DNA of 64,000 nucleotides. Source: Candidatus Saccharimonadota bacterium (GTDB lineage Bacteria > Patescibacteriota > Saccharimonadia > Saccharimonadales > Saccharimonadaceae). A program made the translations under genes and the position numbers. Numbering within the stretch: the stretch's first letter is position 1; each line of letters starts with the position of its first letter. Shown here one piece after another: positions 26,368-53,738 of the stretch. The notes under the pieces were generated by a model, which was given only the letters and a program-made list of their open reading frames with translations, searched no databases and was not told where the DNA came from. The stretch is taken from NCBI GenBank assembly GCA_017511205.1, contig JAFWLE010000009.1, positions 1 through 64,000 on the forward strand. The letters are read 5' to 3'.

Positions 26368-26494
26368 ATAATGCAAGACTGGAAACTTCGTTTCTAAGGT
26401 CTGCTCAAGACAATAAAAATACTAGAGCAAGCTCTAGATTTTTATCATCTTTCGCATCCCTGGAAAAGCTTCGCTTTTCCCAGTCTTGCATTAT
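26368..26494. repeat. 127-bp multi-hairpin element with 15-bp terminal inverted repeats
   Basis: ATAATGCAAGACTGG (26368-26382) is exactly inverted at 26480-26494. Inside are GAAAC-TTC-GTTTC, the long ATAAAAAT-A-CTAGAGC-AA-GCTCTAG-ATTTTTAT hairpin (26412-26445), and GAAAAGC-TTC-GCTTTTC. No coding frame is visible. The right end lies 1 nt from tRNA-Ser. Confidence 0.75.
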
Positions 26495-26495
26495 C

Positions 26496-26590
26496 TGGCG
26501 GAGGGTGGGAGATTCGAACTCCCGCTCCAGGTCGCCCCAGACTAACGATTTAGCAAACCGTCCCCTTCAACCACTTGGGTAACCCTCCGC
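26496..26590 (-). tRNA. tRNA-Ser (anticodon GCT)
   Basis: A 95-nt class II tRNA: acceptor GCGGAGG pairs with CCTCCGC, anticodon stem ACGGT/ATCGT with loop TTGCTAA (anticodon GCT, codons AGC/AGU), a long variable arm, T-loop TTCGAAT, and encoded CCA at 26496-26498. Confidence 0.95.
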
Positions 26591-43002: not shown

Positions 43003-43527
43003 ATGGAGGAAAAATCTACCAAATCTACCGAAAAACCCAAACTGAAAGACGTTAAAACTAGTAAACACGCCGCTAGATATATCATCGTCGGCATCGTCGG
43101 CACCCTTTTTAATTTTATTCTTTATTCTATTCTCTCCAATCTTATTTTTAGAAATAACGATCTCCTTTGGCTATCTGCTTTCATTAGCACCGCCATCACT
43201 ACCATAGTCGCTTACATTCTTCACTCCAGAATCACCTGGAAAGAACGCGCTATCTCTAAAACCGCAATCTACAAATTCTTCATTTGGAATATCATATTCA
43301 CCGTAGCCATCAACCCATTATTTACACAACTCTTTAGCTATCTCACCCCTTTATATGATTTTGCTTATAGTATCATCCAAGCCCTTCATATTCCCGTCAG
43401 CTATGAGCTTACTCTAACCACTGGGGCTTTTGCCCTTACCTCGCTTGTCAACATGATTCTCAATTTCATTTTCTACGATAAATTTGTCTTCGGCAAAAAA
43501 GAAGGTAAAAATGACGACAAATCCTAA
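43003..43527 (+). CDS. GtrA-family membrane protein
   Basis: A 174-residue protein with four membrane helices: ARYIIVGIVGTLFNFILYSIL, AFISTAITTIVAYILHSRITWKE, a third and LTSLVNMILNFIFYDKFVF, the GtrA pattern. GtrA-type proteins help move lipid-linked sugars across the membrane for surface glycan modification. Start ATG 43003 is 6 nt after an extended -10 (TGCTATAAT, 42988-42996). The GT2 gene overlaps its end by 17 nt, so the two act together. Confidence 0.85.
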   Translation: MEEKSTKSTEKPKLKDVKTSKHAARYIIVGIVGTLFNFILYSILSNLIFRNNDLLWLSAFISTAITTIVAYILHSRITWKERAISKTAIYKFFIWNIIFTVAINPLFTQLFSYLTPLYDFAYSIIQALHIPVSYELTLTTGAFALTSLVNMILNFIFYDKFVFGKKEGKNDDKS

Positions 43528-44476
43528 AGTTTCCATTATTGTTCCAGTTTATAACTGCGCCAAATATCTAAAATCTTGCGCCACATCTATCCTCAGCCAA
43601 ACATATCAAAATCTCGAAATCATCTTCGTAAACGATGGTTCTACTGACGATTCTCTTGAATTACTGCAATCCTACGCCAAATCCGACTCTCGCATCAAAG
43701 TCATTAGCCAAAAAAACCAAGGCCTTTCTGCTGCCAGAAATATCGGTCTAAAAAACTCCACCGGAGACTATGTCACCTTTATAGATGGCGATGATCAGAT
43801 TGAATCAGAAATGATTTCCAGTATGTTAAGCACTCTCATCGAGACCAAAACCGACGTTGTTGCTTGTTCTTTCAAAGAATTGTATCCTTCTGGAAAACTT
43901 ATCGGATTCAGCCACGGCCAAAAACCACAAATTTTTGATACTAAAGACGCTTTGAAAGCCATGTTGAAGGAGCAGGGTTTCATGCTCTCTGCCACCATGA
44001 AACTATTTCCTTTGAATTACTTTAAAGACATCAAATTCCCCGTTGGTAAACTTCACGAAGATGTCGGTACCACCTATAAACTCATTATGAAAGCTAGTTC
44101 CGTCGCCTATTTACCAGATGAACTTTACATCTACTGCCATCACCAAGACTCCATCATCTTAGGCACCTTTGACGATCGTAAATTCGATCTCATCACTGAG
44201 ACCGACGAGATGTGCGACGCCATAGATAAAGAATACCCTGAACTAGAAAACATCACCAACGAACGCCGCATGCGCGCCCGCTTTTCCATCCTGCGCCAAA
44301 TTCCTACCGACCATCCCCGCCGCCAAGAGATTATATCTTATCTCAAATCCCACCAATCCTTTATCACTAGCAATAAAGAAGCTTCCTTAAAAGATAAAAT
44401 CGCTTTAAAACTCGCCATCCACGCTCCCAGATTATTTAGTCTTTCTTATAGAATTACTAAGCACATTAATGTGTAA
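43511..44476 (+). CDS. Family 2 glycosyltransferase
   Basis: A 321-residue GT-A glycosyltransferase: KVSIIVPVYNCAKYLKSC start, NDGSTDDS, the DGDD metal motif at about residue 95, then a C-terminal helical part. It uses a nucleotide- or lipid-linked sugar to build the surface polymer. AGAAGG precedes ATG 43511. Its last codons and stop are contained in the left arm of the structured repeat starting at 44466. Confidence 0.85.
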   Translation: MTTNPKVSIIVPVYNCAKYLKSCATSILSQTYQNLEIIFVNDGSTDDSLELLQSYAKSDSRIKVISQKNQGLSAARNIGLKNSTGDYVTFIDGDDQIESEMISSMLSTLIETKTDVVACSFKELYPSGKLIGFSHGQKPQIFDTKDALKAMLKEQGFMLSATMKLFPLNYFKDIKFPVGKLHEDVGTTYKLIMKASSVAYLPDELYIYCHHQDSIILGTFDDRKFDLITETDEMCDAIDKEYPELENITNERRMRARFSILRQIPTDHPRRQEIISYLKSHQSFITSNKEASLKDKIALKLAIHAPRLFSLSYRITKHINV

Positions 44477-44601
44477 TTTGCCATATCGAAGGATATAAAG
44501 GCAAAATCTATGATTTTGCCGCCGCAAGGGCGGAGCGACGTGGTATAATCGTCAGATTACCACGTCGCGGAGCTCCTGAGATATGGCAAATCACACATTA
44601 A
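44466..44601. repeat. Structured repeat element, copy 1
   Basis: A 136-nt element. Its outer arms (44466-44486 and 44581-44601) pair over 21 positions with one A-C mismatch. Inside: conserved GAAGGATATAAA, hairpin GGCAAAATC-TAT-GATTTTGCC, hairpin CCGCC-GCAAG-GGCGG, a variable hairpin GACGTGG/CCACGTC with TAATC/GATTA (44537-44566), and conserved GCGGAGCTCCTGA. The left arm includes the last codons of the GT2 gene. Compare copy 2 at 53566-53703. Confidence 0.85.
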
Positions 44602-44659
44602 ACCTCTAGCAATTTTCTAAACACCAACTAAGTGTTATAATATAGAAAACGAAGCTAGG

Positions 44660-45271
44660 ATGTATAATTTTCTGAAACGCATTTTCGATTTAATTCTCAG
44701 CCTCATTGGCTTAGTTTTTTTAATTCCCCTTTATCTCATCATCCGTTTGCTCTATATCTTTACCGGTGATCTTCACCGCGTTATTTTTGTCCAAACTCGT
44801 GTCGGTAAAGATGGCAAACCCTTTCAGCTGCTCAAATTCCGCACTATGAATATCGACGCCGACCAAGAATTGAAAAATATTTTAAAGGAACCAAAATACC
44901 GCAAAGAATGGGACAAATTCCATAAAATCAGCAACGACCCGCGGATTACCAAAGTCGGACGCTTCTTAAGAAAAGCCTCTCTAGACGAATTTCCTCAATT
45001 TATCAACATTTTTCTTGGCTCGCTTTCCGTTATCGGCCCCCGCCCGCTCGTTCCTGGTGAACTCGAAGAGCATCACGGCAACACTAAGCTCTACTGGTCC
45101 GTCAAACCTGGTCTCACCGGATGGTGGGCAGTTAACGGCCGTAGCCTTAAAAACTATGAAGAACGCCTCAAGCTAGAATACTATTACATTAACCACCGCT
45201 CCATCAGCCTAGACGCCAAAATCATTCTCAAAACCTTCACCACCATCCTCAAAAAATCTGGTGCCAAATAG
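44660..45271 (+). CDS. Initiating sugar-phosphate transferase (PF02397)
   Basis: A 203-residue membrane enzyme: N-terminal helix (8-33), then FVQTRVGKDGKPFQLLKFRTM, RITKVGRFLRKASLDEFPQFINI, and IGPRPLVPGE, the polyprenyl-phosphate hexose-1-phosphate transferase core. It loads the first sugar phosphate onto undecaprenyl phosphate. TATAAT at 44636-44641 lies between the structured repeat and the gene. It is convergent (4-nt gap) with the Wzx-like gene. Confidence 0.9.
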   Translation: MYNFLKRIFDLILSLIGLVFLIPLYLIIRLLYIFTGDLHRVIFVQTRVGKDGKPFQLLKFRTMNIDADQELKNILKEPKYRKEWDKFHKISNDPRITKVGRFLRKASLDEFPQFINIFLGSLSVIGPRPLVPGELEEHHGNTKLYWSVKPGLTGWWAVNGRSLKNYEERLKLEYYYINHRSISLDAKIILKTFTTILKKSGAK

Positions 45272-45275
45272 TCTT

Positions 45276-46793
45276 CTAAGCCTCGCTCCGTTTTATTACC
45301 TTCTTCACCGCCCGCTTAATCTCGCCCATTTCTCGACGATAGAAAAACAGTGACACCATTATTATCAATATAATCATAGCTGCCGCATAAACCACGGCGT
45401 GTACCAGCCAATTCCCCACCGACAAATCGTTTAGCGGATAAAGCCACGCGCATAAAGCCACACACCCCAGGCTCATCAAACCAAAAATCAACAATTTTTT
45501 GAAGAATTTTCCCATGGGTCTTCCAATCAAATCCTTCCAAGCGTATACTACATGATACATCGTCCGATATGTCATCGCCGCAAGAGTCCCAATTGCAATC
45601 CCCACAAGTCCCAACGGAAAGACCAGAATCACTGACAGTATAATATTAATTGCCGCTTCGATGATAGCGTGTTTTCTAACCACTTTAAACTTATTTGCCA
45701 CATAAGCCAAGTTTACAAACGGCTCCTTTAAACAAAACATCGCTTCCGCAAGCAGTATCAAAATTCCAAACACCGGTTGATTATAATTCGCGTCGTTTAC
45801 ATTTGATGTATAAAGTAGCACAAATGGCGTAATTAAAAGCCCCCCCACTGTGAATAGAAAGCTTGTTAAAACAAATGTCATATATTCATAAAAATCAAAC
45901 AATCTATTTAGTTCCTTCTCATTTTTTTTCGCATATAAATGTCCCATCGTCGGTGTAATCCCAGATGAAAAAGACTGAATCAGCTGTTTTAAATGTCCTG
46001 TTACAAATACATATACGCTATAGATAGAAACCGTTTTAAGCCCCGCAAACAACGTCAGCACCACCACATCCGTATTATTATGCACAAAAGTCGCGAGGCT
46101 CACTCCCAGCCCATCCCACCGACTTTTTAGAAGTGCCTTATCCGGCTTAACCTCTTTTTTAATATCTAAATGTTTCCCCACCGCCAAATAATAAATCACC
46201 GGCTGCAACAAAAAGACCAAAGCACTAATCAGCTCCATAAAATGCAAATTCGGCCACACATTTTTCATAATTACAAATGCCAAAATATTCAAAACCACCA
46301 CAACTATTTGCGTGAAAGAAACAATGTATACTTTTTTATCTGCCTGTAAAAGTAACCTCAAGGAAATCGAAAAAGCATATCTCACAAAAGTATTAATCGC
46401 TAGTATCAAAGTCATCGTAGCAATATACTCAAACGAAAAACTACTTTTCGTAAAAATCGGATATAAAACTGCAAGAGCCAGAGCATATAAAATAAAAAAT
46501 CCCGCTAGTTTATTATAAAATCTTCTCGTCGTCATCACTACCTGACTAACCTTTTCCATATCTCTCTCAGCTAAAGGTTTATAAAGATTAGCTAGTACTA
46601 CCGCCGAAAGCCCACCTTCAAATAATGCCATATAGTTCAAAAACTGCGTCAGGGATGATATCAGCCCATTCGCTTCTGAGCCAAACGTCGTTAAAATGAT
46701 CCTCGGAATAATAAATCCACTGATGATCGTCGCGATTTGTAAACAAATGCTTGCAAAGACGTTCATCATCGTCACGGATTTATTTTTGCGCAT
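45276..46793 (-). CDS. Wzx-like polysaccharide flippase
   Basis: A 505-residue protein with about 12-14 membrane helices and the MATE/MOP flippase pattern (FASICLQIATIISGFIIPRIIL; YMALFEGGLSAVVLANLY). It moves lipid-linked repeat units across the membrane. It is last in a minus-strand operon and overlaps the Wzy-like gene by 14 nt. The presence of a Wzx-type route next to the ABC exporter downstream implies two polymers or two assembly routes. Confidence 0.8.
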   Translation of the reverse strand: MRKNKSVTMMNVFASICLQIATIISGFIIPRIILTTFGSEANGLISSLTQFLNYMALFEGGLSAVVLANLYKPLAERDMEKVSQVVMTTRRFYNKLAGFFILYALALAVLYPIFTKSSFSFEYIATMTLILAINTFVRYAFSISLRLLLQADKKVYIVSFTQIVVVVLNILAFVIMKNVWPNLHFMELISALVFLLQPVIYYLAVGKHLDIKKEVKPDKALLKSRWDGLGVSLATFVHNNTDVVVLTLFAGLKTVSIYSVYVFVTGHLKQLIQSFSSGITPTMGHLYAKKNEKELNRLFDFYEYMTFVLTSFLFTVGGLLITPFVLLYTSNVNDANYNQPVFGILILLAEAMFCLKEPFVNLAYVANKFKVVRKHAIIEAAINIILSVILVFPLGLVGIAIGTLAAMTYRTMYHVVYAWKDLIGRPMGKFFKKLLIFGLMSLGCVALCAWLYPLNDLSVGNWLVHAVVYAAAMIILIIMVSLFFYRREMGEIKRAVKKVIKRSEA

Positions 46794-47973
46794 ACTTCTG
46801 ACCTCCGCCTAGTTTCGTTAGACCAATCGTCGGATAAAGCATCAGAAAATAATTAAATGTCAGCTCAATCATCCTCGGACTTAACATTGAATAACACGCT
46901 ATTACTATCAAGATAAATTGCAATTCCTCATTTTTATCTTCTACCGCCTTCTTACCTAACAAATATTGCATTGCCAGAAAAATTCCTAAAACTATTATTC
47001 CGTAATTAAGCATCAAACGAACGTAAACGTTATCAACTGCATTAAATTCCGAAGACTCTACTTCACCGTTATAAACTTCCGAAATCCCCACCCACTTAAT
47101 CGGCCGGCCAAATATCGACTCCGGATATTCCCTTTCGGCTTTGCTCATTAGTGACAATCTACCAGAAGACACATCATTGAGCTTACTCATTATCGGCGAT
47201 TCTTTATCATAAGTGTAAACCGCAACTATTGAGACTATCGCCACTATAAAAACTATATATTTTGCTAAGAATGCCAAAATTTTTCCATACTTTAATCGTG
47301 GCCACACCCTTCTCAAACCAAAATAGCTTACCACTAAAACAATGCATATTGGTTCAAACCTAGTATCAGTCAAAAGGAATGAAAGCAGAGCTAGTAGCAA
47401 GAATCCCAAAAACTCATACCATCTTGCTTTCTTCCATCTTAGATAAAACCACCCACAAGCAATGCTAAATAAAAAGATTCCGAGATACGTTGCATATCTA
47501 AATCCTAAGCTATGTCGCATCACGTCATTTTCAGAACGCCCATATATTCGATCTGGAGTTATACCTAGGAGAAATAGCAAAACGAAAAGCCCCACAATCA
47601 CCAGCTCACAAATTAGCACGTATTTTAGCACTCTTCTAAAATCTGTCCCATACGCCGCCACTATCATAATAAAAACCCATAACAAATTCCTATTCTCCGA
47701 AAAAATCGAAGCCACTAGAATCGCCAAAAAAATTGCCACAGTTACCCATAATCTCTTTTTTGAATAACTCTTCAAATCAAATACCAAAATTTTAAAAATC
47801 ATGCTAGCTAGAATCAAATACCTCACCGCCCTTAAAGGCATTATATCCATCGCATCAGAATAAACGAAATAAGACATTAGAATGTTAACCGTTATAAACG
47901 ACACTACCCCCACAATATATAAGTTTTCTCTAAAAAGAGGCGTCCTATCTAAAAACTTCTTCAACTTACGCAT
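46780..47973 (-). CDS. Wzy-like O-antigen/capsule polymerase
   Basis: A 397-residue protein with about 10-12 membrane helices and one large periplasmic-type loop around residue 270-310 (YDKESPIMSKLNDVSSGRLSLMSKAEREY). The helix layout and neighbours (Wzx, TagF-like) identify it as a polymerase candidate; sequence conservation is low in this class. It overlaps both flanking genes. Confidence 0.65.
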   Translation of the reverse strand: MRKLKKFLDRTPLFRENLYIVGVVSFITVNILMSYFVYSDAMDIMPLRAVRYLILASMIFKILVFDLKSYSKKRLWVTVAIFLAILVASIFSENRNLLWVFIMIVAAYGTDFRRVLKYVLICELVIVGLFVLLFLLGITPDRIYGRSENDVMRHSLGFRYATYLGIFLFSIACGWFYLRWKKARWYEFLGFLLLALLSFLLTDTRFEPICIVLVVSYFGLRRVWPRLKYGKILAFLAKYIVFIVAIVSIVAVYTYDKESPIMSKLNDVSSGRLSLMSKAEREYPESIFGRPIKWVGISEVYNGEVESSEFNAVDNVYVRLMLNYGIIVLGIFLAMQYLLGKKAVEDKNEELQFILIVIACYSMLSPRMIELTFNYFLMLYPTIGLTKLGGGQKYAQK

Positions 47974-49168
47974 CTAGTTTCTCCATGATTATTCGTACTA
48001 CTTTTTCAGTCGAATCCTTTGGCTCATTCAACCCAACTTTTTCAAAATATTTTTCTAGATTTTTTTCATACGTTTTTTTGTCAAAATTCTCTATTACTTT
48101 TATTAATTCCCCATTATTTCTCGCGATTGGAAACGGCAAATCTTTTAGTCTCACACAAAAACCTCTTTCTTTTTCGTATTCAGCTTCGTCAAAAGCAAAA
48201 CAAAAAGTCGGATGTCTCAGAACCGCCGAATCAAACATTGCGCTGGAATAATCACTAATAAATACATCCGCCGCTGCAATTAACTCTTGCATGTCACCAT
48301 AAGCATTTCCGTCTAGCACATCCTCATCAAACTTAACTTCTTTGCATTCTATTTCATTTACTGGATGCAATCTCATTGCCATTTTGAATTCTCCCCCCAT
48401 CTTTTTTTCTAATGCATCTATTACACCTTCTACGTTTATATCAAAATCCGTCTCCTTCATCTTTTTTCGCATTGTCGGAGCATATACCACCAATTTAGTC
48501 TTTTCGTCTAATTTATAAAAATCTCGCACTTTTTTACGCGAATCCTTTTCATTATTCATCAAAAAAGCCATTTTCGGTAATCCACTTTTTAGAATTTCAC
48601 CTTCATACTTATTCCCTTTTCTAAAAGCATTTGAGAGCCAATCACTATTCGAAAGCCAAAGATCTACCACCTTTGCTGTATGTTTCAAGCGTGCTAATTC
48701 CACTATCGAAATTTTTTCTTTCGTTTCAAATCCAATCTTTTTAAATCCTAACCCCCCGTGCCAAGTCTCCAAAAAAAATTGATCTCTTTTTCGTTTAAAC
48801 ACCCAACATGGTTGATAATGCGAATCCACCCACACTTTTGCCGTTGCCAGTTCTCTCATCATTTCTCGCGAATGCCGTCTCACCTGTCGCACATATTTCG
48901 GCAAACCTTCCAATTTATTTTTATCATAAATCCAAATTTGTTTAACTTCCGGATGTTCTTCATGAAGTTCCATCGAAATATACTTCGGATTATCTCCATA
49001 TCTTTTCCCACTAAAACATGAAAAAACTACTTTCTTTTCTAATGGAAACTTCCAATAATAATGAAAAACCATCCACCCGTAAACAACTTTTAAAGGTGAC
49101 AAAATCATGGAGACAAAATCTCGCACTTTTTTCATACCTTTCATTATATCTAATTCAACCCTTTCCAT
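47966..49168 (-). CDS. CDP-glycerol/ribitol polyol-phosphate transferase (TagF/TagB-like)
   Basis: A 400-residue membrane-associated transferase. Family features include ETWHGG near residue 150, LVVYAPTMRKK, the MRLHPV segment, and ISDYSSAMFDSAVL close to the C-terminus. It adds polyol phosphate units to a teichoic-acid-type chain. The start was set at ATG 49168; an in-frame ATG at 49135 is also possible. It lies 8 nt after the GDPD-like gene. Confidence 0.8.
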   Translation of the reverse strand: MERVELDIMKGMKKVRDFVSMILSPLKVVYGWMVFHYYWKFPLEKKVVFSCFSGKRYGDNPKYISMELHEEHPEVKQIWIYDKNKLEGLPKYVRQVRRHSREMMRELATAKVWVDSHYQPCWVFKRKRDQFFLETWHGGLGFKKIGFETKEKISIVELARLKHTAKVVDLWLSNSDWLSNAFRKGNKYEGEILKSGLPKMAFLMNNEKDSRKKVRDFYKLDEKTKLVVYAPTMRKKMKETDFDINVEGVIDALEKKMGGEFKMAMRLHPVNEIECKEVKFDEDVLDGNAYGDMQELIAAADVFISDYSSAMFDSAVLRHPTFCFAFDEAEYEKERGFCVRLKDLPFPIARNNGELIKVIENFDKKTYEKNLEKYFEKVGLNEPKDSTEKVVRIIMEKLDA

Positions 49169-49175
49169 CAACCTA

Positions 49176-50060
49176 TTACACTAAGGAATCGGTCCCCACC
49201 ATATCAACTTCCTTTAGAAGCTCCTTGGCCCTTTCCTCATCGTTTTCAGTAAAAACATAGACTATCAATCCATTATTCCTGAAAAACTGGATAATATCTC
49301 TTTCCTTTTCATATGTTTCTTCTAGGGTTGAAACACTCGTCACTCTATTTTTCCGACAATAATCCAAAAATTCCTCCGGCGTATCAATTCTCTCATCTAA
49401 TCTATTCTCTTCAGCTGGCCAGTATAGATTATATAGTTTAAAGTTATACATACTTCTCGCAGTTTTCACCATATCAGTATTATGCCCGCCCACAATCATC
49501 CGATCCAGAATTGATGAATCTTCTGTAATTCCTAATATTTCTTTATAAGCCTTTCTCAGATATAAAGCTTTTTTCTTCCCAAAATCCAGCATCATATAAG
49601 TGTCAGGATTTTCCTTCATAAAATCAACTAGATCCTTAAAATCTAATGGCGTATACCGTTCCTCAATCATCGTCCCCATGAATTGGTCGTAAGTCATTCC
49701 ATTGCTATACGAATCTAAATCCAGACCAATCATTTCCGCATAATCCGTTTCCGACCATCCGTTAGTTAAAACCAATTTATCGTCAGCCGTCAGCCTCACG
49801 TCCACTTCATAAAACTTAGCTCCTAAGTTTTTCGATTTTTCTAGAGCCTCTTTGCTATTCGTATATACATATTCATCAATACCACCTAAAGCATGCATAA
49901 TATAATCATTCTTAGACACTGCACTTTTGTATTCACTTACCACCGCTTCTTGCTTTTCTTTTTCTGCCTTTTCGTCTATTTTAATTTTCACAAAAGAAAT
50001 CACAAGTAGTATTATCAAAAACCCCAGACAAAATTTCAAAATATAATCACTTTTTTTCAT
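49176..50060 (-). CDS. Membrane-anchored GDPD/PI-PLC-like protein with altered active site
   Basis: A 294-residue protein with an N-terminal membrane helix (7-26) and an external TIM-barrel domain. It has HALGG where glycerophosphodiesterases have HRG, then FYEVDVRLTADDKLVLTNGW; the usual second catalytic His-Asp position reads Asn-Gly. Possible metal ligands remain (YEVDV). It may cut or bind a glycerophosphate link in the polymer, or be non-catalytic. Overlaps the epimerase gene by 4 nt (ATGA). Confidence 0.65.
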   Translation of the reverse strand: MKKSDYILKFCLGFLIILLVISFVKIKIDEKAEKEKQEAVVSEYKSAVSKNDYIMHALGGIDEYVYTNSKEALEKSKNLGAKFYEVDVRLTADDKLVLTNGWSETDYAEMIGLDLDSYSNGMTYDQFMGTMIEERYTPLDFKDLVDFMKENPDTYMMLDFGKKKALYLRKAYKEILGITEDSSILDRMIVGGHNTDMVKTARSMYNFKLYNLYWPAEENRLDERIDTPEEFLDYCRKNRVTSVSTLEETYEKERDIIQFFRNNGLIVYVFTENDEERAKELLKEVDMVGTDSLV

Positions 50061-51073
50061 CCTCTAAAAAACTCCACAGTCCTTTTTACCCCATCCTCAA
50101 GTCCTACTGAAGGTTTCCACCCCAAACTCTCAATTTTTTTTGTATCAAGCTTTGTTCTCGCAAATTTTACGTATGCTCCATCATCATTTTCTGGTTGAAC
50201 CACAAGTTTTAAATCATACCATTTTACCAAGTTATCCGCTAGTTCGCGAATCGAAATTTCTTCAGTCTCGTTTGCAATATTAAAAATCTGATTAGCATCC
50301 GCCACGGTCAGAAGTAAAAGCCCTGCTATCGCATCCGCCACATAACAAAACGCCCTTTTCGCTTCACCCTTACTTTTTAACATAATGTCTTCTTTTCTTA
50401 CGGCTCTTCCTAGTAGATCCGCCATCACTCTTCCGTCATTCTGGATTTTCATCATCGGTCCATACGCGTGCGCCAATCTCGCAATTTCAAATTTAATCCC
50501 ATATTGGTGAGCATAAGATATTATTAAATTCTCCGCCATCCGCTTACTTTCAGGATAGCATGACCTCAGTTCCGTTTGGTCTATCACTCCAGCATCCGTT
50601 TCCGCCACTGGACTTTTTTCCACTGCACCATATACTTCCCTTGTTGATATAAAAATTACCTTCGCCCTTTTTTCTTTAGCTAAATCTAGTATGTTTTTTG
50701 TTCCAAACACATTTGCTTCAATTACTCCCACCGGATTTTCTTTAAATGTTTCCGGATCAGCCCTCCCTGCTGCATGCAGTATTATATCAACCGGTTGGGA
50801 TACTTCTATCTTTTCACACACATCCTGCACCAACAAATCTACATCTTCACGCTTCCCAAATTCCTTTTCCAAAACTTCGCCCTTCCTAGCTAATGCAATC
50901 ACTTTTATGCGGTAGTCTTTTTCATCATTTAGATAAAGAAACGCTGCAATATAATAATATGCCAGCATCCCCAGTGCTCCGGTCACTAGAATAGTTTTTT
51001 CCTTCAAACTAGAAAAATCATATTCATTGCAGATTTTTTTTAGGTCTTCTTGAATAATTCTATTCTTATACAT
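50057..51073 (-). CDS. NAD-dependent epimerase/dehydratase (extended SDR)
   Basis: A 338-residue SDR. Cofactor loop TGALGMLAYYY near residue 29, catalytic YPESK (with Tyr-x-x-x-Lys), and RPLAHAYGPM-like segment are visible. It probably makes a nucleotide sugar or polyol precursor; its specificity is unknown. ATG 51073 overlaps the cytidylyltransferase gene by 8 nt, supporting a joint step with that enzyme. Confidence 0.8.
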   Translation of the reverse strand: MYKNRIIQEDLKKICNEYDFSSLKEKTILVTGALGMLAYYYIAAFLYLNDEKDYRIKVIALARKGEVLEKEFGKREDVDLLVQDVCEKIEVSQPVDIILHAAGRADPETFKENPVGVIEANVFGTKNILDLAKEKRAKVIFISTREVYGAVEKSPVAETDAGVIDQTELRSCYPESKRMAENLIISYAHQYGIKFEIARLAHAYGPMMKIQNDGRVMADLLGRAVRKEDIMLKSKGEAKRAFCYVADAIAGLLLLTVADANQIFNIANETEEISIRELADNLVKWYDLKLVVQPENDDGAYVKFARTKLDTKKIESLGWKPSVGLEDGVKRTVEFFRG

Positions 51074-51779
51074 CTTCTTTTCTCTTTTTATAAATCGATT
51101 CTGCAAGCGCCATGTCCTTTGGCGTAGTTATTTTGATATTATCATAATCTGTCATCACTACCGCCAAATCTTGATTATACTTATACATCAGAGTACAAGA
51201 GTCAATCGAATCATGAATTCCCTCCGCTAAAGTCTTTTCGTGTGCCGCTAAAAGATCCTTCAAATAAAAACTCTGCGGAGCCTTAGCTACCAGCGATCTA
51301 TCTCTCACTGGTATCTCTTTTACCTTCCCTTCTCCATCAGTTACCAAAAACGTTTCTGTCGTTTTTACACAAGAAATCGCATTACCATGCTTTTTCACGC
51401 AAGCTATATTATCACTAATCAACTTCTCATCAATAAACGGTCTCACTCCATCATGAACTAATACAATATCTTCGTCGCTCTCAGATAATTCTTTCGCCGC
51501 CAAAAGTCCGTGATAGATCGATTCTTGGCCCGTCTCGCCGCCCACTACTAATTTTTCAACTTTCGAAATATTATATTCAGTTAATAATCTCCTAGTTCTT
51601 TCCAAGTAACCGTCCTTCATCACCAGCACAATTTTTTCAATCTCATCATGGCTTTGAAAATTTCTCAAAGTATGAATCAAAATTGGCACGCCTTCAATTT
51701 CCAAAAATTGCTTCGGCGTCCCATCCTTAGTCTGCATTCTACTACCAATTCCCCCTGCGAAAATCACTGCGATGTTCAA
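51066..51779 (-). CDS. IspD/TarI-type cytidylyltransferase
   Basis: A 237-residue enzyme: AVIFAGGIGSRM, GTPKQFLEI, VHDGVRPFI and the later TTPKDMALAE match the IspD/TarI family that makes CDP-methylerythritol or CDP-ribitol. Neighbours (LicD, epimerase, polyol transferase) favour a CDP-polyol for the surface polymer. The TTG at 51779 is preferred (GGAG 6 nt upstream); a TTG at 51791 lacks a ribosome site. Promoter at 51807-51835. Confidence 0.8.
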   Translation of the reverse strand: MNIAVIFAGGIGSRMQTKDGTPKQFLEIEGVPILIHTLRNFQSHDEIEKIVLVMKDGYLERTRRLLTEYNISKVEKLVVGGETGQESIYHGLLAAKELSESDEDIVLVHDGVRPFIDEKLISDNIACVKKHGNAISCVKTTETFLVTDGEGKVKEIPVRDRSLVAKAPQSFYLKDLLAAHEKTLAEGIHDSIDSCTLMYKYNQDLAVVMTDYDNIKITTPKDMALAESIYKKRKEDV

Positions 51780-51806
51780 TTTCTTCTCCAAAATTATTAT
51801 TGATAT

Positions 51807-51835
51807 ATTATACCATATTCTCCCTAGAATTCCAA
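51807..51835 (-). promoter_or_regulatory. Internal promoter in the surface-polymer operon
   Basis: On the minus strand TTGGAA (51830-51835), 17 nt, TATAAT (51807-51812). The -35 lies inside the end of the licD gene, so the cytidylyltransferase and downstream genes can be transcribed separately. Confidence 0.65.
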
Positions 51836-52723
51836 TTCAAACACCGTATGTGTTTCCCGTTCATTCTTCGCTGGTATTTTTCTATAATCACCATACATCT
51901 GCTTCAAATATTTATCATATTCTTTGGGAATCAAAAATTGCTGACCCCCAAATTCATGTCTAACGCCCTCACAAAAATCTTCTCGTTTATACATCTCCCC
52001 AAAAAAATGTTTCCTCCCCACCGGCACTACCACTAGCTTCGATTTTTCATTTTTGCACATTTTATTCACCTTATCCCAAGTTTTTGCCCAACTTCTTTCC
52101 GTTCTCCACGCAAACAAAAAACCTAAGCTAATCTTTATTTTAAATATTCTTCTAATCTTTTTGTCCTCACCAGCCATTTCTAGAAACACTTTCCTCTTTC
52201 CGTAAAAATTCCGGCAAGAATTAATTAACCCAAAAGTCAAAGAAAGCATCCCCTGCACCCACCTCATTATTATGAAATTATAAGTATTTTCAATAATACA
52301 TAGCTCAATCGCAATGCCAGCATCCTCATTGCCTACGTCGTCTTTTGTTCTATAAATCGTCCCCTTCTTTCTCATTTTTGGTACAATCAAATCATAAGTT
52401 GGATTGGTATCAATACTCTGTAAATCGTATTTCTCACCTAGCTCTTTTTTGAAAACCTTTTTCAATTTTTCATAGTCTTTTCTTGGCATATCAATATCCA
52501 CATCATCGTCCCAAGGTATAAAACCATTATGTCGCACCGCACCCAAACAACTCCCGCCAGTTAAATGGTAATTAATCTGATTCTTCGTACAAACCTTATC
52601 AAAATCGCACACCATTTCTAGCAGAGTCTTTTGCAGTTTCTTCAAATCACTATCACTTAGTTTTTTTAACTTCTCATTTTTATTCTGCAACTGTTTAAAA
52701 ATATCCGTTGTTTTAAGCCCCAT
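51824..52723 (-). CDS. licD: LicD-family phosphotransferase
   Basis: A 299-residue enzyme: YHLTGGSCLGAVRHNGFIPWDDDVDIDM is the LicD core (metal-binding DDDVD). The family transfers phosphocholine or phosphoribitol onto surface sugars. With the CDP-polyol synthase next to it, a CDP-linked donor is likely. ATG 52723 overlaps the TGA of the upstream gene (TGATG), and GGAG precedes it. Confidence 0.85.
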   Translation of the reverse strand: MGLKTTDIFKQLQNKNEKLKKLSDSDLKKLQKTLLEMVCDFDKVCTKNQINYHLTGGSCLGAVRHNGFIPWDDDVDIDMPRKDYEKLKKVFKKELGEKYDLQSIDTNPTYDLIVPKMRKKGTIYRTKDDVGNEDAGIAIELCIIENTYNFIIMRWVQGMLSLTFGLINSCRNFYGKRKVFLEMAGEDKKIRRIFKIKISLGFLFAWRTERSWAKTWDKVNKMCKNEKSKLVVVPVGRKHFFGEMYKREDFCEGVRHEFGGQQFLIPKEYDKYLKQMYGDYRKIPAKNERETHTVFELEF

Positions 52724-53526
52724 CAGAAACTCTCCTCGTATTTTTTCCCGAAAAACTTCGCCTTTAAGAATCCTCCGCCCTTCTTGATCCAATTCACCGG
52801 CTCAATCGAAATCACTGGCACTTCTACATATTCTATATTATTTGTCCGCACAAACACATCTAATAATAATTCCGAAATCCGACCGTAAAACCTAGCGTGA
52901 AATCCTTCGTATTTTAAATCTATCTTTTTGGCACGCTTTTCTAGCTCGAATAGAATATCAAACAACCACTCCGAATACTCATCAAATATTTCTTCCTTCA
53001 TCACCATCATATTGAACATATGCGCCGTCTTTCTTTCATGCAATTTCAAAAACTCATCATAATATTTCGGATATTTTTCTTTTATAATCTCACACGTTAA
53101 ATCCAACGGCTCCTTGTGCATTGTATGCGCATAATGATCATATAGATCCTCTATCAAATAATTGCGTTTTCGCGGCAAAATTACATCTACTCCCTTTAGT
53201 AAGTTCTCTGCTTGTTGTTTAGTCAGCACCTTTTGCAAACGCTTTTCTGGTTTACCAAGTCTACACTTAGCCATCGAGAAATATCTTCTATAATGCACTA
53301 AGCCTTTGTAATCCGCTTTTAAATTTTTCCAAGCCCAGTACATCCCAGTTAATTCTGAATATCCGTCATTTTTCTTAGAAATATTATTTCCGTCATTATC
53401 ACTCTGGAAACTAGTCTTTTTACCATGAAAATCCACCCCCACTTCTAATGGTAAATATAAATCGTCTTTCGGCATCGCGTACTTTTTATGCGTCGCTACC
53501 ACAATTGTGATCTTCGATTCTTCCAC
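52723..53526 (-). CDS. DUF4422 glycosyltransferase-like protein
   Basis: A 267-residue protein of DUF4422, capsule-locus glycosyltransferase-like enzymes: ITIVVATHKKYAMP start, SELTGMYWAWKN, LVHYRRYF, ILPRKRNYLIEDLYDHY. It starts with GTG at 53526, exactly 6 nt after a minus-strand TATAAT (53533-53538), and is the first gene of the eight-gene operon running to 45276. Its N-terminal LPLEVG and YFS motifs fit a GT-A fold; sugar unknown. Confidence 0.8.
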   Translation of the reverse strand: MEESKITIVVATHKKYAMPKDDLYLPLEVGVDFHGKKTSFQSDNDGNNISKKNDGYSELTGMYWAWKNLKADYKGLVHYRRYFSMAKCRLGKPEKRLQKVLTKQQAENLLKGVDVILPRKRNYLIEDLYDHYAHTMHKEPLDLTCEIIKEKYPKYYDEFLKLHERKTAHMFNMMVMKEEIFDEYSEWLFDILFELEKRAKKIDLKYEGFHARFYGRISELLLDVFVRTNNIEYVEVPVISIEPVNWIKKGGGFLKAKFFGKKYEESF

Positions 53527-53565
53527 CCCTTTATTATATAATATAATTCAAAATTAAATACATCC

Positions 53566-53703
53566 TTGCCATACAATTCATTTATATTGAAGGATATTAA
53601 GGCAAAATCTATGATTTTGCCGCCGCAAGGGCGGAGCAATGTAATAAAATTTTTAATTTATCACATTGCGGAGCTCCTGAGATATAAATGAATTGTATGG
53701 CAA
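53566..53703. repeat. Structured repeat element, copy 2
   Basis: A 138-nt element. Outer arms 53566-53587 and 53682-53703 are perfect 22-bp inverted repeats, entirely different from copy 1. The core (53589-53637) matches copy 1 at 48 of 49 positions, the variable hairpin is AATGT/ACATT with ATAAA/TTTAT (also 30 nt), and GCGGAGCTCCTGA is identical. It sits between the divergent -10 boxes at 53533-53538 and 53727-53732. Confidence 0.85.
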
Positions 53704-53738
53704 AACATTATTCAATCTTATTATGTTATAATATATCT

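Follow-up and report, generated by a model that had tools for sequence, protein, structure and literature searches.

Two hairpin elements in the window

The window analysed here is a stretch of 64,000 nt from a Candidatus Saccharimonadota bacterium (GenBank assembly GCA_017511205.1, contig JAFWLE010000009.1, positions 1 to 64,000), and it carries two copies of a hairpin element, here called F1, both on the plus strand at 44466-44601 (copy 1) and 53566-53703 (copy 2). An initial reading made from the letters alone (the sequence-only reading) had described both elements, and they were verified at these positions, as were the agreement of the two copies at 48 of 49 positions of a core running from GAAGGA through GGAGC and the identical 13-nt tail GCGGAGCTCCTGA. 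Copy 1 (match to covariance model R1, see below, at 44465-44605 with 153.5 bits) begins with the left outer arm of stem P1 (44466-44487), in which the upstream glycosyltransferase open reading frame (43484-44476) ends with a TAA stop codon at 44474-44476. The arm is followed by the GA of a tandem G.A hinge and the left strand of helix P2, AGGA (44488-44493; from the fold, and conserved in the alignment A3 described below), the P3 hairpin GGCAAAATC-TAT-GATTTTGCC (44500-44520; fold and A3 helix 4), the P4 hairpin CCGC-AAGG-GCGG (44522-44533; fold), the variable 30-nt inner hairpin P5 (44537-44566; fold and A3 helix 6), the conserved tail with the right P2 strand TCCT and the second hinge GA (44567-44579), and the right outer arm, complementary to 44466-44487 (44580-44601); the tail and both arms were delimited by sequence and fold. 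Copy 2 (model match 53565-53707, 151.6 bits) is composed of the left outer arm (53566-53588), the 49-nt core containing the hinge GA, P2, P3, and P4 (53589-53637; from sequence comparison), a P5 that is likewise 30 nt long (53638-53667), the tail (53668-53680; from sequence), and the right outer arm (53681-53703), with arms and P5 again placed by sequence and fold.

The P1 stems of the two copies span 22-23 positions, of which no more than one or two are mismatched. The minimum free energies of the RNA folds were -72.2 and -64.9 kcal/mol for copies 1 and 2 (z = -10.3 and -11.9; none of 200 shuffles folded as well), and the DNA folds were also about 10-12 standard deviations better than shuffles on either strand. 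The sequence-only reading had held the outer stems and inner hairpins to be paired but unrelated between the copies; the pairing and the common 30-nt length stand, whereas alignment with further copies (alignments A2 and A3) reveals both arms and inner hairpins as diverged homologues. F1 contains stop codons in all six frames. The genes that follow copies 1 and 2 encode a bacterial sugar transferase (PF02397) and a LytR-CpsA-Psr protein (PF03816), in line with the earlier statement that both copies precede surface-polymer genes; the neighbourhood is incidental because other F1 copies occur in all gene contexts.

Copies, spread, and mobility of F1

A search of the own genome (G000) with the core, allowing up to three mismatches, yielded 11 F1 copies, from which alignment A2 and model R1 were built. 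With R1, 21 strong copies (109-160 bits) were found in this 0.8-Mb genome, so that the earlier description as a two-copy element was an undercount; nearly all of the further weak matches were the reverse strand of places already found. The copies in the own genome are exclusively intergenic and mostly 135-151 bp long, ranging from 99 to 209 bp with deletions and one insertion. The copy at contig C9:128175-128383 (L105) bears an extra hairpin insert of about 70 nt in its P3 loop. Covariance searches of relatives recovered further copies with compensatory changes: F1 was present in 3 of the first 35 congeners examined and, genus-wide, in 38 of 174 genomes with 1 to at least 18 copies each, and was absent from 24 other genera of the order. 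Carriage by viruses was rejected as the exact core patterns of F1 and of its sister family F2 (below) had no match in 2.9 million viral contigs.

The closest species found were G124 and G127, and the flanks of every own F1 copy were aligned to G127; the two copies of the window sit in a polysaccharide region that has no alignment to that genome. Eight orthologous loci were element-free in G127 (C4:113884, C7:23626, C7:66152, C9:128175, C9:168213, C9:199783, C6:84001, and C11:4800), with flank identities mostly of 71-85% and of about 67% at C6:84001. At three other loci (C12:55134, C9:135282, and C9:169641) G127 has another hairpin family at the same spot, and at C12:43310 it has another F1. 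Since eight orthologous loci lack the element in a related species, F1 moves: it is mobile, recently inserted, and sporadic among species. A TATAAT lies within about 60 nt downstream of 13 of the 21 copies, for example just past window positions 44601 and 53703, compared to 4.5% of random 66-nt windows, and F1 seems often to land just upstream of a promoter-like -10 box.

Orientation relative to replication

Within each contig of the own genome all F1 copies lie on one strand. The G-rich strand is generally the leading strand, and for each contig the GC skew at third codon positions was split into a replication and a transcription part. All 21 own copies have their plus strand on the C-rich strand according to this contig-level skew, with the local raw skew in agreement for 19 of the 21, and the 15 copies of G007, G012, and G023 show the same orientation without exception, giving a combined count of 36 out of 36. 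The neighbouring genes are convergent, divergent, or tandem, in no constant relation to transcription, and the copies L087 and L088 are antisense to both of their neighbours; given these arrangements, there is no defined transcript to which F1 belongs. This is strong evidence that the orientation of F1 tracks replication and not transcription.

The same 36 of 36 would also arise by survival, that is, if F1 inserted in both directions and one of them were deleted at the fork, and inverted repeats are unstable in a strand-dependent way. The predicted single-stranded DNA stabilities are equal on the two strands, at -45.7 and -45.4 kcal/mol for one window copy and -40.3 and -40.2 kcal/mol for the other, although tandem G.A pairs may be given no weight by the DNA energy model. 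A strand-specific hairpin stability was dropped on these figures as the cause of the orientation, and differential survival, which concerns orientation only and is compatible with the explanation preferred below, appears rather doubtful.

Sister families and the origin of the arms

The own genome contains a second family, F2, with about 18 copies on contigs C12, C9, C10, C6, C4, C11, and C7, outside the window. F2 and related elements stand in frame within conserved genes, including ileS, der, uvrB, trmD, obgE, valS, uvrD, and others (names read from the translations); the F2 arms differ in every copy and often include host codons, and 17 of 18 copies follow the orientation rule of F1. A third family, F3 (G000 C4:56415-56490 and C7:6663-6738), has the core GAGGAATTAGCGACAGCGTCGACAGCCGAG and copy-specific arms, and further smaller hairpin families exist in the same genome. 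In the window, a perfect 15-bp inverted repeat, ATAATGCAAGACTGG/CCAGTCTTGCATTAT, flanks a 97-nt structured stretch (26368-26494) directly downstream of a tRNA gene on the minus strand (26499-26588) and looks like another palindromic element. F1, F2, and F3 have in common a hinge between arm and core, C-GA-(A)GG...CC(T)-GA-G, with two tandem G.A mismatches, which in F2 and F3 rests on inspection and is replaced by full pairing in some copies. A scan for tandem G.A within long inverted repeats gave eight GA/GA or TC/TC matches, seven of them F1, compared to two matches of any kind in three shuffled genomes; the scan missed most F2 copies owing to bulges.

Several coding sites are used repeatedly. 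The same codon position of ileS is occupied by different hairpins in G000, G006, G010, G018, and G005, and that of trmD in G000, G001, G003, G004, G006, G009, and G018, which suggests that both genes are insertion hot spots for hairpin elements; in the ileS of G018 one hairpin element is nested in another. The direction of the trmD core relative to the gene, read by hand, varies among species as the replication direction does, which argues for independent insertions at one site. In the trmD of G006, the left F2 arm holds the native R-x-F-A codons conserved in congener orthologues and the right arm repeats these codons in inverted form; in the uvrB of G003 and G005, the left arm likewise holds the conserved native GW and the right arm its inverted copy. 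In the obgE of G012, the right side is probably the native one.

For F1 itself, the clearest case is C4:113884. The empty site in G127 reads GAAGCCAAAAGCATTCCAAA followed by GCCTCCTTTAAAG, with the junction at CATTCCAAA/GCCTCC, and the filled site in the own genome consists of GAAGCCAAAAAGATACCAAA, the element arm, the core, the second arm, and TTTGGTAGTCTTCTAAT, then GCCTTTAAAG, so that AAGATACCAAA is retained at the left and TTTGGTAGTCTT is gained at the right. The outer arms are complementary at 15 of 16 positions (none of 500 shuffles was as good), the outer-arm score is 9 for the empty site and 25 for the filled site of G000, and host sequence reappears inverted in the outermost 11-12 nt. 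Because the G127 site holds the left part only, the outer left arm is host-derived and the outer right arm is a new inverted copy. A similar but less clean inverted copy of 8-10 nt is found at C11:4800, C7:66152 has F1 inside the native short palindrome ATAATAGTACTATAAT, and the remaining clean sites have a short outer extension or none. The idea of a mobile hairpin with arms made from its target, one of the two offered by the sequence-only reading, is borne out as to mobility by the eight empty loci and in part as to the arms, by C4:113884 and F2; the larger part of the F1 arm is inherited.

These observations bear on two other explanations of the arms. In a conventional miniature inverted-repeat transposable element (MITE), a transposase would read the arms as terminal inverted repeats, and the helices would drift by mutation with occasional correction. 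Size and copy number of F1 fit such an element, and most own copies have terminal repeats with a common consensus, GTTNNATAATTCAT..ATATC. Terminal repeats should, however, be alike between copies, whereas the left arms of different F1 copies are 53% identical and the two arms within one copy pair at 89%; shared repeats are seen in many own F1 copies, and the arms are unrelated in the G007 copies and in F2, where they have nothing in common. Neither a partner transposase, nor a full-length element, nor a target duplication was seen, and we regard a conventional MITE as unlikely. The arms may instead be old host hairpins, for example terminator stems, split by a core that inserted into pre-existing palindromes, as C7:66152 and the nested elements (L105 and the ileS of G018) would suggest. 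The other clean empty sites contain no such palindrome, the outer-arm score at C4:113884 being much lower for the empty than for the filled site, the trmD and uvrB coding sites of relatives lack palindromes of 15-20 bp, and long hairpins of the F1 arm type without an insert are rare in the own genome; this origin is improbable.

Covariation of the paired positions

Alignment A3 comprises 35 F1 copies aligned to the covariance model, a procedure that favours the structure. In A3, 95% of the cells pair and 39 of 49 pairs are altered on both sides, with 315 double-change cells (85 in shuffled and at most 72 in slid controls) and a covariation score of 0.490 (0.169 in shuffled and at most 0.101 in slid controls). 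Summed over all A3 helices, 1580 cells are Watson-Crick pairs, 24 are G.T, and 28 are A.C; in the arms alone there are 23 G.T and 18 A.C cells. Many copies show switches from GC to AU or from CG to UA with the G.U form almost absent, and the compensatory changes have no strand preference. A selected RNA tolerates G.U and not A.C, while copying of one arm from the other favours neither, and since G.U is not above A.C the covariation of F1 appears to reflect copying at the DNA level and not selection on an RNA. Here base-pair covariation is probably not evidence for a functional RNA, with arm copying as its likely source.

The remaining explanation, a structured regulatory or catalytic RNA with a multi-way junction whose helices are kept by selection for shape, was the other proposal of the sequence-only reading. 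It would account for the very strong covariation on A3, the fold z scores of -10 to -12, the presence of motifs characteristic of RNA (tandem G.A and GNRA-like), and the occurrence of a TATAAT no more than about 60 nt away from 13 of the 21 copies, which lie upstream of it. The TATAAT, however, is 3' of the element, and because this promoter-like box lies downstream, the transcript of the gene behind would exclude F1. In addition, all 36 orientations follow replication, some copies (L087 and L088) are antisense to both neighbours, G.U cells are not in excess of A.C and G.U intermediates are almost absent, and most congeners as well as the orthologous loci in G127 lack the element. The Rfam search of the window returned two tRNAs only and no family for F1; the best sub-threshold matches of copy 1 were microRNA models (18.8 of 180 bits), and with nothing above the gathering threshold the earlier remark that no known family is recognisable holds. 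A structured RNA is highly improbable. No evidence for a functional RNA is rated more highly than covarying base pairs, and a covariation of 39 out of 49 pairs that was apparently made in DNA would mislead RNA discovery based on it.

Proposed explanation

The explanation that we consider likely is that F1 is a non-autonomous mobile DNA hairpin of about 140 bp that occupies intergenic space, is oriented by replication, and has arms for which either the opposite arm or the target served as template. The single-stranded hairpin would form at the replication fork, and insertion would use the single-stranded DNA exposed there, through which F1 would spread and survive. The part conserved as such is the core, with the tandem G.A hinge, P2, P3, P4, and the tail, while completion or correction of one arm from the other, through fold-back synthesis or template switching either during insertion or in subsequent rounds of replication, would keep the outer arms paired, and in part P5 and P3 as well. 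The copying could extend outward into the host flank, whereby each copy would gain a palindrome of its own. The explanation requires neither a product nor a ligand nor a host benefit, and F1 would be selfish DNA tolerated between genes. Template switching is an established source of compensatory changes that both creates and maintains perfect stems (PMC8794818). The pattern of changes makes arm copying a plausible mechanism, with direct support from one clean F1 empty site (C4:113884) and several F2 coding sites.

Several points weigh against this explanation. Most own-genome F1 arms share a consensus, so that the F1 arm is mainly inherited, and they drift in pairs. No target-site duplication was evident at the eight empty sites, with G127 too diverged to rule out a short one. 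A fixed polarity of arm copying was sought among the F2 sites and not found, the native side being the left in the trmD of G006 and probably the right in the obgE of G012, and where sites are reused across species by F1 and F2, change in place and re-insertion are hard to separate. The skew-based orientation assumes that the G-rich strand is leading. Finally, no recombinase or transposase partner was identified for F1. Mobilisation by a Y1 enzyme (RAYT or IS605) was ruled out, since Y1_Tnp (PF01797, TnpA-REP) is absent from the own genome and present in one of 36 congeners; a TnpB partner was rejected as no TnpB domain was found; and the sole RVT_1 match, being part of a diversity-generating retroelement that has a template repeat and variable repeats of its own, was set aside as a reverse-transcriptase partner. 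That retroelement (L398, G000 C7:13611-17122) encodes a reverse transcriptase of about 376 aa and contains an Asn-codon-rich template repeat; the matching variable repeat lies at the C-terminal end of an open frame of 543 residues.

More tentatively, F1, F2, and the smaller families could belong to a single superfamily of single-stranded DNA elements coupled to the fork, in which only the hinge and core are conserved, the core priming fold-back synthesis on the host flank and template switching keeping the palindrome. If this were true, the members would be mobile elements without fixed ends, each insertion building a palindrome from its target.

Comparison with known systems

In the open-access literature nothing relevant was found on such elements in Saccharibacteria or other candidate-phyla bacteria. 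IS200/IS605 elements (IS608, ISDra2) insert in a manner coupled to the fork, which gives an orientation bias (PMC6006769), and F1 resembles them and their miniature derivatives in its orientation fixed relative to the fork. It differs in that neither TnpA nor TnpB was found and in its long covarying arms, which are foreign to IS200/IS605. With REP/REPIN sequences and their TnpA-REP (RAYT), F1 has in common intergenic hairpin repeats, a single-stranded DNA biology, and species-specific families; in contrast, no GT[AG]G was seen on inspection at the feet of the F1 copies examined, the Y1 transposase is missing as described above, and F1 has a multi-helix core of 140 bp. Template-switch mutation likewise yields perfect stems and one-step compensatory changes by copying arm from arm (PMC8794818), but it has been described as a process of mutation in RNA genes, not as what drives a family of mobile repeats.

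F1 in its mode of action and F2 in its appearance resemble the Rickettsia palindromic elements (RPE), which are 105-146 bp long, occur in many copies, and lie both between genes and in frame within them (PMC2229807). The palindromic elements of Rickettsia and Wolbachia (WPE) resemble those described here as long stem-loops present in many copies, with several families in one reduced genome. F1, mostly 135-151 bp, is a many-copy palindrome of about the RPE length of 105-146 bp, and F2 also stands in frame inside conserved genes. F1, however, is intergenic only and was likened to RPE by description, not by sequence comparison, and for both reasons we would not file it as an RPE. To our knowledge, a fixed replication orientation, copy-unique arms, and a tandem G.A hinge have not been described for RPE. 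F1 is an unusual feature, which we take for a new kind of variant among mobile palindromic DNAs and not for an RNA. How protein-coding palindromes of the RPE kind spread is unsolved, and F1, with many empty and filled sites and a fixed fork orientation, offers a testbed for this question in an unrelated group with tiny genomes.

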